From assembly GCA_013139635.1 (NCBI GenBank), contig WTAL01000270.1, forward strand, positions 1-32,299: DNA of 32,299 bases. The letters are read 5' to 3'. The notes beneath the pieces were generated by a model that had not been told where the DNA came from, made no database searches, and worked only from the letters and a program-made list of their open reading frames with translations. Origin of the DNA: Paracoccaceae bacterium. Lineage in GTDB: Bacteria; Pseudomonadota; Alphaproteobacteria; Rhodobacterales; Rhodobacteraceae. Within the stretch, counting starts at the first letter, position 1. Each line of letters opens with the position of its first letter. The position numbers were made by a program, and so were the translations under genes. This document shows positions 5,700 through 23,935 of the stretch, one piece after another.

Positions 5700-5756
5700 A
5701 TACGGCAAAGCAGAGTTCTTGACACAAAGCCAACCCTACCGTAACCCTTATATATC

Positions 5757-5940
5757 CACTTGGTGCCTGTTCGGGATACCCGCTCAGGTGAAACGGGAAG
5801 ATCGGTGAGCCTTTATGGCAAATCCGACGCTGCCCCCGCAACGGTAGATGCGTAAAACTGGCCATATGTCACTGTGCTGCAAGCACGGGAAGGCGGCCAA
5901 GTAGGTGTAAGCCACGCATAAGCCCGGAGACCGGCCATAT
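5757..5940 (+). promoter_or_regulatory. Cobalamin (B12) riboswitch
   Basis: The conserved landmarks occur in order: GGTGCC near 5762, CAGGTGAAACGGGAA, GATCGGTGAG, then the B12 box GACGCTGCCCCCGC with AACGGTA near 5827-5846, a variable arm, and the closing AGCCCGGAGACCGGCC at 5921-5936. Adenosylcobalamin binding to this aptamer normally represses the downstream gene. The region 5700-6045 has no gene; the riboswitch fills most of it, and about 105 bases of leader carry the expression platform before the CbiM-like start. A TTGACA at 5719-5724 may be the -35 element, but no well-spaced -10 is evident. Confidence 0.93.
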
Positions 5941-6045
5941 GGTAAAACGGCACTGCGGCGGGCGGTTCCTATGGCTTTGGCCATCCGCTCCCGCATGCTT
6001 CTCTCAATCGGCGCGCGGGGTCGTGCGCCAAAGAAAGGACATATC

Positions 6046-6723
6046 ATGCATATTGAACCGGGCGTCGTAGACGGCGCAAAAATGGCGCTAGGGGCCGCAA
6101 CAGCAGCTGGGGCGGCTGGCCTTACGGCAAAGCTGGCAGCGGATACTGCCAAAGAAGGCGGCCTTGCTTCACTGGTCACGCGGAGCGTAATCAGCACCGC
6201 CGCTGTGTTTAGCTTTTTTCAGGTTTTGCCACACCATCCGGTTGGCGTATCTGAAGTGCACCTCATCCTCGGCTCCACTCTGTTTTTGCTGTTTGGCCGC
6301 GCGCCAGCCATGATCGGCCTTGCGGCCGGGCTTTTGCTGCAAGGGCTGCTTTTTGCGCCAACAGATCTGCCGCAATACGGCATTAACCTCACCACGCTGC
6401 TGGTGCCGCTCTATGCCATGAGCCTTCTGGCTGCACGGATTATCCCTAAAGGCACGGCCTACAAGGATATTTCCTATATGCAGGCGCTTAAGCTTTCGAC
6501 CACCTTTCAGGCGGGCATTGTGAGCTGGGTGGCCTTTTGGGCGCTTTATGGTCAAGGGTTTGGGGTGGAAAACCTCGCATCGGTTGCCTCGTTTGGTGCG
6601 GCTTACATGCTGGTTGTTTTGCTAGAACCATTGGCAGACCTTGCCATTCTGGCCGCTGCTAAAACACTGCACGGGTATAAAGACAGCGGGCTATTTACGC
6701 CGCGCTTGTTTACAGCTGCTTAA
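6046..6723 (+). CDS. CbiM-like cobalt transporter substrate-binding permease
   Basis: A 225-residue polytopic membrane protein. It begins MHIEPGVVDGAK, the CbiM/NikM N-terminus in which Met1-His2 helps bind the metal ion, and contains HHPVGVSEVHLILG at about residues 64-77, the second conserved metal-site loop, followed by several hydrophobic helices. The ATG at 6046 is fixed by AAGGAC upstream and by the need for a free N-terminus; the frame is open further upstream but that part lies over the riboswitch leader. The B12 riboswitch supports cobalt uptake for cobalamin. No CbiN, CbiQ or CbiO gene is adjacent, so its energising partners are elsewhere or it works alone. A terminator follows. Confidence 0.85.
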   Translation: MHIEPGVVDGAKMALGAATAAGAAGLTAKLAADTAKEGGLASLVTRSVISTAAVFSFFQVLPHHPVGVSEVHLILGSTLFLLFGRAPAMIGLAAGLLLQGLLFAPTDLPQYGINLTTLLVPLYAMSLLAARIIPKGTAYKDISYMQALKLSTTFQAGIVSWVAFWALYGQGFGVENLASVASFGAAYMLVVLLEPLADLAILAAAKTLHGYKDSGLFTPRLFTAA

Positions 6724-6730
6724 AAGCTAA

Positions 6731-6760
6731 AGGCCGCACATAGGTGTGCGGCCTCCTTTC
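6731..6760 (+). terminator. Rho-independent terminator of the CbiM-like gene
   Basis: AGGCCGCAC (6731-6739) pairs perfectly with GTGCGGCCT (6746-6754) around a six-base loop and is followed by CCTTTC. It starts eight bases after the stop codon. The U-tract is weak, but the stem is strong and correctly placed. Confidence 0.75.
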
Positions 6761-6771
6761 ACATACTTTCC

Positions 6772-7025
6772 ACCGAGGCGAAGCCGAGGCCATGGCCCGT
6801 TAGGGCAAAGGTTTTTGCTTGCAAAAACACGCCTTTGCTGAGCGGGGGGATGGGCGGCTACTTGCCCCCCATAACCAATCTAAGTGGCCTCCCCGAAGCA
6901 AAGGCGCACCTAGCTTGTGGCTGGGTGCGTTGCCCGTAGGTCAGCGGGGAACCCTCCGTCCATGCCCTGTTGCTTCGCAACAGAACAAAGACGTTTGGGC
7001 GGTGGCCTCGCTACGCTCGGCGGCC
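6772..7025. repeat. Hairpin-rich intergenic element, copy A (about 254 bp)
   Basis: This stretch holds no gene. Its ends are imperfect inverted repeats: 6772-6798 (ACCGAGGCGAAGCCGAGGCC and on) and 6997-7025, whose complement reads GGCCGCCGAGCGTAGCGAGG and on. Inside are GTTTTTGC/GCAAAAAC (6811-6828), GGGGGG/CCCCCC (6844-6870), CGCACC/GGTGCG (6905-6929) and CTGTTGC/GCAACAG (6967-6983). The right end abuts the grxD stop codon. Copy B (16499-16717) has the same order of ends and first hairpins; copy C (23775 on) matches the right end. The family identity is inferred from these shared parts. Confidence 0.7.
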
Positions 7026-7388
7026 TTAGCCGTTGGCTTCGCGCACTTTGTCAGCAGCTTCTTTACTAAACGCGATGCCATTTTCTTCCAAAAGCGTGTC
7101 TAGCTCGCCTGAAAGCACCATCTCAGTAACGATATCACAGCCGCCTACAAACTCGCCTTTTACATAAAGCTGCGGTATGGTTGGCCAGTCAGAAAACTCC
7201 TTGATGCCTTGGCGAATGCCCTCATCAGCAAGTACGTTTACGTCTTTATATTCGATGCCCATGAAGTTTAGCACGCCGGCAATACGGCTAGAAAAGCCAC
7301 ATTGTGGGGCTTCAGAGGTGCCTTTCATAAAAAACACAACGGCATTATCTGTAATGTCGGCTTGGATTTGTTCGGCTGGAGTTGTCAT
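7026..7388 (-). CDS. grxD: Monothiol glutaredoxin, Grx4 family
   Basis: A complete 120-residue cytosolic protein with the monothiol active site CGFS at residues 30-33, preceded by [11 protein letters not shown], and the GSH-binding WPTIPQLY and GGCD segments. CGFS glutaredoxins bind a glutathione-ligated [2Fe-2S] cluster and, with BolA proteins, handle iron-sulfur delivery and iron sensing. bolA is two genes upstream on the same strand, which fits the known Grx-BolA partnership. The ATG follows GGAAG. Element A begins immediately after the stop codon. Confidence 0.95.
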
Positions 7389-11476: not shown

Positions 11477-11515
11477 TGGCGCGGTGAGGTTTCTGTTTGT
11501 TGCAGCATTGCGTAC

Positions 11516-11540
11516 GCGCCGCGCTGCGAACTTTGCGCTT
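11516..11540. repeat. Degenerate copy of the GC-rich short repeat (E)
   Basis: GCGCCGCGCTG followed by TTTGCGCTT resembles, at 20 of 25 positions by eye, the repeats at 19557-19588 and 23904-23935. It lies in the gap between two convergent genes, and a GCGCCGC/GCGGCGC pair here could act as a weak bidirectional terminator. Confidence 0.3.
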
Positions 11541-11564
11541 ACCAAGGGTGCTGCGGCGCGCCGC

Positions 11565-16498: not shown

Positions 16499-16717
16499 GC
16501 CGCCGAGCGTAGCGAGGCCACGGCCAGCGGCAGGCGTTTTTCAGTTTACTGAAAAATGTGCTTTTTCGACGGGGGGCTTGTCCCCCCAGGGAGAAAAAGC
16601 AAACGCGGAGCTGCCGGACAGTCCCGAGCGCGCGCCGCCTCGAGGAGCCTAAAGGCCCCCCTCGTTGGCGCGGGCCGTGCAAGCACGGCCGTGCTCGCCA
16701 GCCGCCTCGCGCTCAGC
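16499..16717. repeat. Hairpin-rich intergenic element, copy B (about 219 bp)
   Basis: Left end 16499-16525 (GCCGCCGAGCGTAGCGAGGC and on); right end 16701-16717 is an imperfect inverted copy. Inside are TTTTTCAG/CTGAAAAA (16537-16556), a nested stem GCTTTTTC/GAAAAAGC (16560-16600) around GGGGGG/CCCCCC (16571-16587), and the 18-base palindrome GGCCGTGC-AA-GCACGGCC (16673-16690). The order matches copy A while stem sequences and loops differ. The WYL regulator's last codons and stop lie inside it. With 16334-16498 (pyrG leader and promoter) this accounts for the 315-base gene-free stretch. Confidence 0.7.
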
Positions 16718-17392
16718 TTTAAACTTTGCAAATATCTCGCGCAGAAGCGGGACGCGTTTTGGGCGGAAGCTTTGGCGGGTTTCTGTGAATCTCACGATCC
16801 GGTCCAACCGGAAAGTGCGAAAATCCTGTCGCAGGCAACACCAGCTTGCCAGCACGAGAGTGCTTTCCAGAAATACGATGCCAAGCGGATAGACATCTCG
16901 TTCACTCGGCGCATTATGCTGATCATTATAGTGGATATGAATTACCGTTTCTGCCCGAATACACCCGCGCAATTTTGCAATATCTATGATGATTTCGGGC
17001 CGTTGGTGAAAGCGCCTAGCGTGCAGGCTGGCATGTTCGAGTTGGTGTCTTTGAGACTCGGGCAAGCTCGCGCGAAGTTTTGCCAGTGCATTTTGTGCAG
17101 CCTTAGAAAGCACCGAGTCTGCCACGGCCTGCACTTCACGCAGCCCTAGCACCAAGGCTTCAATCTCGTCTTGTGAAAAGCTCATCGGGGGCAGGGCCGG
17201 GTCATCTATCAGCGTATAGCCATAGCCCGCTGCCCCGTCTATTACCGCCCCCATACTGCGCAGGGCTTCGATATCGCGATATAATGATCGTAGCGAAACG
17301 CCGGTTTCGTCGGCCAGAGATTGCGCCCGCACCGGGGGCGGCAGGCTTCGAAACAATTGCATCAGCTGCATCAGGCGGTGGCTTCTGGACAT
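16649..17392 (-). CDS. HTH-WYL transcriptional regulator (YafY-like)
   Basis: A 247-residue cytoplasmic regulator. Residues 1-55 are a winged helix-turn-helix of the HTH_11 type (LADETGVSLRSLYRDIEALR), and about 125-215 form a WYL domain (YPLGIVF ... FRTFRLDRI). WYL domains sense ligands, often nucleic-acid or metabolite molecules. The ATG at 17392 starts the conserved sequence. It is divergent from the GST-like gene 83 bases away, the usual place of its target. The last 20 or so residues (after FAKFKAEREAAGE) come from element B and look unlike the family, so the natural C-terminus was probably extended or replaced by the repeat. Confidence 0.85.
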   Translation of the reverse strand: MSRSHRLMQLMQLFRSLPPPVRAQSLADETGVSLRSLYRDIEALRSMGAVIDGAAGYGYTLIDDPALPPMSFSQDEIEALVLGLREVQAVADSVLSKAAQNALAKLRASLPESQRHQLEHASLHARRFHQRPEIIIDIAKLRGCIRAETVIHIHYNDQHNAPSERDVYPLGIVFLESTLVLASWCCLRQDFRTFRLDRIVRFTETRQSFRPKRVPLLREIFAKFKAEREAAGEHGRACTARANEGGL

Positions 17393-17475
17393 TCTAATCT
17401 CATAACGATGGCTGCTGACAGAAAGTGACAGCAACCCCTTGTAACACTTCGGTATCATATTCACAGGAGAATCGA

Positions 17476-19511: not shown

Positions 19512-19588
19512 GGTGGCGGCGCGTCAACCTTTGCGCTTTTTGGCAGGTGTGCGCCCGCGCCGCGCTGAGGCCTTGGCGCTTGTGGCGA
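19512..19588 (+). repeat. GC-rich short repeat, copy D
   Basis: Begins GGTGGCGGCGCG (19512-19523) and ends with a 32-base segment (19557-19588; GCGCCGCGCTGAGG and on to TTGTGGCGA) that matches 23904-23935 with one mismatch. The start also matches 23860-23871. The middle is diverged. It lies just downstream of the GNAT gene (minus strand) in a 167-base gap. Confidence 0.6.
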
Positions 19589-23330: not shown

Positions 23331-23767
23331 TGGAGTTGGACGAAAAAGACCACGGCATCATTCGGGCGCTGAGGCGAGACGGCAGCTTAAACGCGGGGGA
23401 GGTTGGAAAGTCCGTAGGCCTGACCCAGCCCTCGGCGTGGCGGCGGATAAAACGGCTGGAAGAGGGTGGCGTGATTGTGGGCCGCAGGGTGCGGCTGAAC
23501 AAAGCCGCGTTGGGCTTTGAGGTGGTGGTTTATCTGGGAGTTAAACTGGCAGCCAAGGGGCGGGTCAGCCTAGAGGATTTTGAACGCGCTGTATGTGCGG
23601 TGCCTGAGGTGCAACTGGTGCAGCACGTGCTTGGCGTGTATGATTACCGACTGAAAGTGGTGGCGCGAGATTTAAGCGATTTTGAGCGTATCCTGCGGCG
23701 GCGGATTATGACTCTGCCCGGCGTAGGTGAAGTGGAAAGCAACGTGATGCTTTCAGAAATCGGCTAA
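23327..23767 (+). CDS. Lrp/AsnC family transcriptional regulator (second of tandem pair)
   Basis: A 146-residue regulator with the same order of domains: winged helix (DEKDHGIIRALRRDG ... WRRIKRLEEGGVIVG) and RAM domain (VVVYLGVKL ... RRRIMTLPGVGEVES). It overlaps the upstream paralogue by four bases and is clearly related to it but diverged. Lrp proteins form dimers and octamers, so mixed oligomers are possible. Two Met codons are adjacent (23327 and 23330); either could start. Element C begins eight bases after its stop codon. Confidence 0.9.
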   Translation: MMELDEKDHGIIRALRRDGSLNAGEVGKSVGLTQPSAWRRIKRLEEGGVIVGRRVRLNKAALGFEVVVYLGVKLAAKGRVSLEDFERAVCAVPEVQLVQHVLGVYDYRLKVVARDLSDFERILRRRIMTLPGVGEVESNVMLSEIG

Positions 23768-23774
23768 GGCAAGC

Positions 23775-23859
23775 GCCGCCGAGCGCAGCGAGGCCACCGC
23801 CCAATGGCGAGGGATTATTTGCGCAGCAAATGATCTCGAGCCGAGGGTTCCACGCTGGC
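23775..23859 (+). repeat. Hairpin-rich intergenic element, copy C (partial)
   Basis: Starts GCCGCCGAGCGCAGCGAGGC and on (23775-23803), the same as the complement of the right end of copy A apart from one base. It then has a hairpin ATTTGC-GCA-GCAAAT (23817-23831) where A has CTGTTGC-GAA-GCAACAG, and the shared GAGGGTTCC-CGCTG near 23843-23856. Stem bases differ yet stay paired. It runs into the second repeat family at 23860. Confidence 0.65.
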
Positions 23860-23935
23860 GGTGGCGGCGCGGCGAGGGTTGTGTGCTTGGCGAGGTTGCA
23901 CGCGCGCCGCGCTGAGGCATTGGCGCTTGTGGCGA
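23860..23935 (+). repeat. GC-rich short repeat, copy fused to element C
   Basis: Begins GGTGGCGGCGCG and ends with the 32-base segment 23904-23935 that matches 19557-19588 with one mismatch. It lies between the second Lrp gene and the LysE gene, directly after element C. The 217-base gap 23768-23984 is almost wholly repeat sequence. Confidence 0.6.

Follow-up and report, generated by a model that had tools for sequence, protein, structure and literature searches.

A probable REPIN-like family of mosaic repeats with covarying hairpins in Rhodobacterales

Introduction

How can intergenic elements change the sequence of their stems and keep the fold? The question is raised by three stretches, A, B, and C, in a window of 32,299 nucleotides from a Rhodobacterales genome, the whole stretch of DNA analyzed here. 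An earlier note had grouped them by a common end sequence and by stems that differ between copies yet remain complementary, and had considered 3′ RNA structures or terminators, a MITE-like mobile element, and repeated inversion of stem arms. Its observation and its interpretation each hold in part. The results described below suggest that A, B, and C are probably copies of a Rhodobacterales repeat family that is mosaic, non-autonomous, and REPIN-like, with hairpin modules joined at an end hairpin, H0.

Modular anatomy of the three copies

The end sequence is indeed common to all three stretches (Table 1). H0 can fold as GCC-GA-GC-GNA-GC-GA-GGC, in which a loop of three bases caps a stem of two pairs, followed outward by a tandem G·A mismatch and an outer stem. 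Its 82 contexts in the source genome are mosaic arrangements. In the alpha module, H0 is followed by a short hairpin, then a T-run/A-run hairpin, then one of the form CTTT..GA..GGGG/CCCC..GA..AAAG. In the beta module, H0 is followed by GCCCAA, then a variable hairpin, then a G-rich end; in the beta unit of A, the variable hairpin carries CTGTTGC/GCAACAG and is followed by GGAGGG. Copy A joins alpha to an inverted beta, copy B joins alpha to three further hairpins, and copy C joins beta to epsilon, a block with CGCGCCGCGCTG (window 11515, 19556, and 23903). The left, alpha half of A is homologous to the left part of B, and the right, beta half of A, on the minus strand, to the left part of C.

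Table 1. Positions of the repeat copies and their parts in the window
Feature	Position	Strand	Remarks
Copy A, composite	6772..7025	+	alpha half (left) and inverted beta half (right)
A left-end hairpin	6773..6789	+	H0 variant with GGC/GCC inside, CC-GA-GGC-GAA-GCC-GA-GG (tandem G·A, GNA loop)
A alpha core	6772..6907	+	covariance model R2, E 4.8e-10
A beta unit, class 2	6948..7021	-	also L117:2478-2551
A end hairpin H0	7005..7021	-	GCC-GA-GC-GTA-GC-GA-GGC
Copy B, one-ended	16499..16691	+	alpha core and three more hairpins
B end hairpin H0	16502..16518	+	
B alpha core	16502..16602	+	model R2, E 1.6e-25
B terminal hairpin	16673..16690	+	GGCCGTG-CAAG-CACGGCC
Copy C, beta unit, class 2-like	23778..23851	+	hairpin ATTTGC-GCA-GCAAAT
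C end motif	23778..23794	+	
Epsilon module joined to C	about 23857..23935	+	
Further epsilon copy	11477..11564	+	longer in G150, different repeat in G154
Further epsilon copy	19512..19588	+	

Some of the boundaries had to be redrawn. The inverted right end once attributed to both A and B has no counterpart at the right side of B, whose other hairpins end near 16691; the stretch formerly extended to 16717 runs, at 16700–16717, into what by eye is coding sequence of the neighboring gene in orthologues. Copy C extends further right than had been drawn, through the epsilon module. The stem contrasts quoted in the earlier note belong to different modules: CTGTTGC/GCAACAG versus ATTTGC/GCAAAT compares the beta units of A and C, and GTTTTTGC/GCAAAAAC versus TTTTTCAG/CTGAAAAA compares the alpha modules of A and B. 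Fifteen composite copies with inverted H0 ends, measuring 183–281 bp end to end, were found in source-genome loci (L041 is entered twice in this list), and copies with one H0 end, such as B, C, and others, also exist.

A set of 160 beta units, obtained by an exact-pattern scan (GNA loop and GCCCAA fixed) together with loci already collected, comprised class 1 (n = 79; GCCCAACGGGAGG ... GACGGGCGGGAG or near), class 2 (n = 37; GCCCAA ... GGAGGG), and others (n = 44). A has a class 2 unit and C a class 2-like one. Homology of the classes is judged from the first hairpin, GCCCAA, and the layout that they have in common. H0, its loop, and GA/GA lean to the search pattern, because the scan fixes the GNA loop and GCCCAA. 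When the GA positions were left open, 174 units gave GA/GA in 160, GC/GC in 7, GG/CC in 6, and GA/TC in 1, in a set that leans to GA through how it was collected. The invariance of the class 1 internal sequence is likewise partly by construction, since the 70 rows aligned for this class were picked by a pattern requiring the conserved internal sequence.

Other genera have, before GCCCAACGGGAGG, a hairpin of unrelated sequence. Among 122 class 1 cores, the first hairpin was H0 in 89 and another hairpin of at least five pairs in 30, and 3 were unplaced (by eye, two of these are variants of H0, and the third has a longer loop). In beta, the first hairpin looks like a slot defined by folding.

Copy number and distribution

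The source genome (G000; 3.42 Mb in 271 contigs) contains 82 matches to the end motif GCCGAGCGNAGCGAGGC at up to one mismatch, 50 of them exact, compared to none for the reversed-pattern control; the recurrence of the motif elsewhere in the genome, on which the earlier note had made its claim depend, was thus observed. The motif is present in all 13 genomes of the genus, with 3 to 122 copies each (≤1 mismatch). Among 149 genomes of the family, one from each genus, 22 carry the exact motif, which is abundant only in the source genome (50) and G073 (38), the other carriers having 1 to 6. Inspection by eye of 20 loci (L070–L089) indicated that many lone matches resemble chance occurrences in coding sequence or other GC-rich repeats; beta is present in L072 and L074.

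A beta-pattern scan covering 84,980 species, each represented by a single genome, returned at least 109 stretches. Among the matches listed, 80 of 80 titles are Rhodobacterales genera or MAGs; the genera include Tropicibacter, Falsiruegeria, Shimia, Aliiroseovarius, and Halocynthiibacter, and the MAG titles read Rhodobacteraceae, Rhodobacterales, or Alphaproteobacteria bacterium. A covariance model of class 1 beta (R1, 70 units) matched 19 of the 149 family genomes at E ≤ 1e-4, with 1 to 33 matches each, where up to 33 candidates per genome were scored and E-values are rough. Thirteen of these one-per-genus genomes had two or more matches and six had a single one. The distribution of class 1 beta in the family is patchy. 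The alpha model matched the source genome, and G073, which shares H0, only weakly. In the source genome alone it gave 57 matches, 48 of them at E < 1e-8; the 57 include weak matches that are beta units sharing H0 (C200:26523, C240:6419, and C43:14300). No match was found by blastn for copy A among plasmids or for copy B among plasmids and phages.

Covariation and folding

Strong covariation was seen in the stems of alpha and of both aligned beta classes. In class 1 (70 rows), 93.5% of cells pair compared to 85.5% after shuffling, with a score of 0.283 versus 0.144 and 113 double-change cells versus 42.8. In class 2, to which the beta units of A and C were assigned (36 rows; L240 and L319 were dropped from the 37 units and window copy C was added), the values are 94.4% versus 84.1%, 0.324 versus 0.133, and 84 versus 28.3. 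In alpha (42 rows), they are 97.9% versus 88.3%, 0.255 versus 0.092, and 62 versus 23.5. None of 500 shuffles reached the observed value of any of these three measures in any of the three alignments; the shuffles leave relatedness in place, and related sequences can exceed them without structure. When the partner was slid by one to three columns, pairing fell to 38–56% in class 1, 33–57% in class 2, and 31–55% in alpha; the class 2 control leans towards the assigned structure, because this structure was named from the A copy. Weaker measures were less decisive: in class 1, class 2, and alpha, respectively, 5, 17, and 36 of the 500 shuffles had at least as many pairs with a double change, and 1, 0, and 19 at least as many further pair types.

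An alignment-free comparison gave a similar picture. The mean longest perfect stem of 151 beta cores, which carry 98 distinct 5′ arms, was 7.98 compared to 4.65 for mononucleotide shuffles and 5.39 when arms were swapped between copies. Copies A, B, and C fold more stably than dinucleotide shuffles (z −5.58, −4.08, and −2.64), with 0, 0, and 1 of 200 shuffles, respectively, folding as well as the native sequence. The claim that stems vary yet stay complementary is therefore extended to further copies of beta class 1, class 2, and alpha, in which the pairing is kept.

Covarying stems could also arise if the pairing were kept by a mutational process, such as template-switch palindrome correction or copying between repeats, and not by selection. 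Some stem types do recur in several copies, and at one orthologous pair (L259/L312), the first hairpins show a symmetric change in both arms, by which both G·A mismatches became G–C pairs (A to C). However, template correction would erase the conserved G·A mismatches and G·T pairs, and the strand asymmetry described below is not expected from such a process. Copying between sites was rejected as an origin for the matching stems: within the sample from any one genome, different sites seldom have an exact hairpin core in common (4/15, 2/17, and 0/7). Each sample is part of the copies of its genome, and old or partial exchange may have occurred. A purely mutational origin of the pairing is thus quite improbable. 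The proposal that stem arms were repeatedly inverted is not supported either, as conserved G·A mismatches and G·T pairs persist and the excess of G·T over A·C points to a structural constraint on one strand.

A probable constraint on one strand

With hairpin centers set from Watson–Crick pairs only, mismatches on the written strand show a pronounced asymmetry. The ratio of G·T to A·C was 56:4 in class 1 (105 of 108 hairpins placed), 51:6 in class 2 (34 of 37 placed), and 17:1 in the third hairpin of alpha (24 of 53 placed). The other mismatches comprised 12 G·A and 15 others in class 1, 24 G·A and 27 others in class 2, and 5 in alpha. In a slightly larger class 1 set, the ratio was 59:4, compared to 1.45:1 (at most 1.74) with the 3′ letters shuffled. 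Equal mutation of both DNA strands would be expected to give a ratio of about 1:1. Therefore, one strand seems to be constrained in single-stranded form, as RNA or as single-stranded DNA. G·T is tolerated better than A·C in RNA and in single-stranded DNA alike, so the excess does not discriminate between the two.

The loops offer a further comparison. The RNA tetraloop rule is GNRA, and GNA loops and tandem sheared G·A pairs are unusually stable in DNA, a property for which a literature search gave no direct source. Class 1 has 82 tetraloops, 65 of them GNNA, of which 20 are GNRA and 45 have a pyrimidine at position 3; among 37 triloops, 12 are GNA.

These features bear on the view that beta is a structured noncoding RNA motif, either a multi-copy sRNA or a 3′-UTR element, whose purine-rich internal sequence, with CCUCC on the opposite strand, might bind RNA or a protein. 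The strand-specific G·T excess, an internal sequence that is unchanged after unrelated first hairpins in other genera, and the retention of sites between genomes are all consistent with this view. Against it are the position-3 pyrimidines in 45 of 65 GNNA tetraloops, the patchy presence, the lack of gene-strand bias in tandem gaps, and the lack of an Rfam match at the elements tested. A search with Rfam 15 of the whole window and, at E ≤ 1, of 20 loci found that only cobalamin riboswitches reach the gathering score; in the element A region, nothing reached it and three sub-threshold matches were seen, and those in the 20 loci were CcsR1 (in L074, away from the beta unit) and Thr_leader. On balance, such an RNA motif is unlikely.

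A cobalamin riboswitch (100 bits) lies in the window at 5744–5953 on the plus strand, upstream of gene 5971–6723.

Genomic placement

Placement was scored with codon-based gene calls at 109 named loci holding 104 beta units, of which 87 lie between two called genes; one unit overlapping a gene and 16 at edges were set aside. The 87 units are found in convergent (53), tandem (29; 11 sense and 18 antisense), and divergent (5) gaps, compared to 97, 222, and 99 of 418 background gaps, in which the element gaps are included. A cruder placement of all 160 units gave 58 convergent, 40 tandem (16 sense and 24 antisense), 12 divergent, 30 inside an ORF, and 20 at an edge. Beta favors convergent gene ends, without clear gene-strand or replication-strand bias. 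For replication, GC skew in 20 samples of contig 1 of G073 stays above zero over about the first 1.9 Mb and varies in sign thereafter (0.0000, −0.0070, −0.0577, 0.0007, and −0.0759). Beta matches on this contig lie on the plus and minus strands in numbers of 7 and 6 before 2.0 Mb and 3 and 3 after, and no leading or lagging bias is seen (10 versus 9 of 19 matches, a small number). Collectively, these results support the earlier expectation of a genome-wide family with covarying stems that favors gene 3′ ends.

Copies A and C adjoin stop codons, as had been claimed: the end motif of A is four bases from the stop of the minus-strand gene 7026–7388, and that of C is ten bases from the stop at 23767. 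A role as bidirectional transcription terminators between converging genes would account for the convergent enrichment and for the very stable folds. However, no U-run was recognized by eye after the hairpins in the copies read, and 29 of the 87 units are in tandem gaps and 5 in divergent ones. Furthermore, the gene upstream of A has a terminator-like hairpin of its own (6730–6759), separate from the element, which by eye is also present at the empty site in G156. Termination is accordingly a highly improbable function of the family, and the 3′ RNA or terminator role once suggested for A and C is not supported, given that hairpin and the 11 sense and 18 antisense units in tandem gaps.

Orthologous sites

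Comparison of related genomes showed vertical inheritance at many sites and some occupied/empty differences. Site A is common to G000, G154, and G159, which have the same flanks there; G150 and G153 have an element close to the A-site gene but with another neighbor, and no H0-like motif was found at the site in G156 and G157. Site B carries alpha in G000, G150, G152, G154, and G156. No alpha was found there in G155 or in the gap of G160, which has a beta-like unit with a GGC-type end hairpin (L184:52-127). Site C is occupied in six of ten genomes compared, and four are without H0-like motifs. The site at 11477–11564 has epsilon in G000 and G150. In 18 of 24 comparisons between loci on different contigs, with flank identity of 0.76–0.92, the beta site is common to both loci; the other six, with flank identity ≤0.69, were set aside. 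Recent mobility is not demonstrated, since many of the compared sites are common to different species.

The stems at orthologous sites have followed different courses. The variable hairpin is rewritten yet paired at several sites (e.g., L228/L300 and L256/L307) and nearly unchanged at others (e.g., L262/L335). At site B, the third hairpin folds in five of five orthologues although the stems differ, the second folds as expected in four of five (the one in G150 does not), and by eye the terminal-hairpin slot holds other paired sequences in orthologues.

These sites also bear on whether the family could be a MITE, a non-autonomous element with terminal inverted repeats that derives from a classical insertion sequence. 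The 15 composites that, like A, end in inverted H0 motifs resemble such an element. However, other copies, B and C among them, are one-ended for H0, covarying stems are not required of a MITE, and no target duplication was recognized by eye at site A, where one occupied/empty pair was compared. The MITE-like element proposed earlier is very unlikely on this evidence, in which the search for an autonomous relative covered PF01797.

In the source genome, the regulator gene at 16649–17464 (minus strand) reads through copy B and has the C-terminus GEHGRACTARANEGGL; by eye, its orthologues stop at the element border. At site C in G156 (L150), an extra gene of roughly 130 codons separates the regulator gene at that site from the C element, as seen by eye.

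Search for a mover and comparison with known families

A Y1 transposase (PF01797) was not found in the source genome, nor in any of five further genomes picked for H0 matches; some of the genomes are incomplete. Three of these five (G073, G096, and G100) carry beta as judged by model R1, and G070 and G052 have no beta-model match; the search covered genomes other than beta carriers such as G007, G037, and G038. PF01797 is present in 3 of 13 congeners. None of seven PF01797 loci, which represent six places because L337 and L341 overlap, has H0 at up to two mismatches in the flank examined, and PF01797 does not track copy number: two such places occur in G160, with 3 H0 copies, and none in G153, with 122. 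A RAYT carrier is therefore not supported in the genomes searched, as PF01797 is absent from the source genome, has no H0 in the flanks examined in congeners, and does not follow copy number.

The known tags are also scarce. Within 8 nt upstream of the 160 beta units, GTAG, GGAG, and CGTC were never found, and TGTC and CCTC were found once each. At the other end, GTAG and GGAG occur on the other strand in 7 and 16 units, and CGTC, TGTC, and CCTC occur in 1, 3, and 2. Thus, the family shares with REPs and REPINs the many short palindromic intergenic copies and the inverted pairs enclosing compensated hairpins; the 5′ tag (GTAG/GGAG), a RAYT flanked by repeats, and the CGTC (TGTC, CCTC) tag at one end of CGTC REPs were not seen. 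The family behaves like a REPIN or mosaic REP but is not classed as a REP, because the tag and RAYT features fail.

Compared to other repeat families, the family shows several similarities and differences. First, REPINs are, according to PMC3116915, pairs of inverted REPs around a spacer that must have a certain length and be able to form a hairpin, with compensatory changes common; as in those of Pseudomonas, inverted end motifs surround a hairpin-forming spacer with compensatory changes in many copies (PMC3116915). Unlike REPINs, the present family forms modular mosaics, has no GTAG tag, and has no Y1 transposase in the source or five other genomes. Second, CGTC REPs, as outlined in PMC3733652 (partial text), are palindromic repeats that predominate in alphaproteobacteria, apparently without a dedicated transposase, in which the two families are alike. 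However, the present family has no upstream CGTC in the 160 units and has a two-hairpin unit with conserved internal sequence. Third, BIMEs are similarly mosaics of palindromic units in alternating orientation (cf. PMC2817692), but the units differ and no RAYT was found in the source genome. Fourth, the E. coli intrastrand triplex motif TMECO likewise consists of intergenic purine-rich repeats without strand bias or a link to mobile elements, but its sequence differs, and its copies are nearly identical where the stems here covary (PMC4666352, partial text).

Rhodobacter, Roseobacter, and Ruegeria are absent from the main text of PMC3733652, PMC4666352, and PMC12306157. The available part of PMC8632094 describes two Rhodobacterales motifs, at fixed gene locations. 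No published description of this family was found among titles and abstract openings, a corpus mostly outside the subscription literature, and a text search with family sequence words returned one unrelated virus paper.

Proposed explanation

The REPIN-like reading can be put as follows. One strand would matter to the cell in folded single-stranded form, either as RNA or as single-stranded DNA handled in trans by a mobilizing enzyme or a replication or repair enzyme. The ability to fold would be kept by selection and the stem sequence would drift. Old insertions would persist mainly at the least harmful places, beside stops between converging genes, and the enzyme that spread them may be lost from present-day hosts. 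Against this reading, no mover, clear target duplication, or REP tags were found, and a structured RNA would also be consistent with the G·U tolerance and the conserved internal sequence.

A bolder and rather unlikely proposal is that beta is a mobile structured nucleic acid with two sequence-free hairpin slots and short conserved flanking strands, spread by a route other than RAYT, for example as RNA copied back to DNA or as a folded single-stranded DNA substrate of an enzyme. If true, beta would be a structure-defined, nearly sequence-free selfish element.

Repeats that keep their fold and lose their sequence are hard to detect through sequence search. What is new here is a set of structure-defined mosaic repeats of Rhodobacterales with no mover found where one was sought. 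The family provides a large natural set in which the asymmetry of G·T and A·C tells which strand is folded. With it, what spreads REP-like repeats without a RAYT becomes testable, a question that is also open for CGTC REPs (PMC3733652, partial text).

Other repeats at the same sites

Two other repeats were observed among the copies. A 21-nt AT-rich palindrome, GCAATTTTGCATACAAATTGC, lies like a nested insert inside several copies (L002, L009, L021, L027, L053, and L060); among 389 loci, it matched 7 times, in 6 of them. The other is a second REP-like repeat. It reads GGGGGC..GCCCCC followed by CTCACCCCGGGATATTT or similar, occupies similar stop-adjacent slots, and in some copies abuts H0; it was seen at the G154 site matching window 11477–11564, in L025, L034, L041, and L042, and in L154 near 1920.
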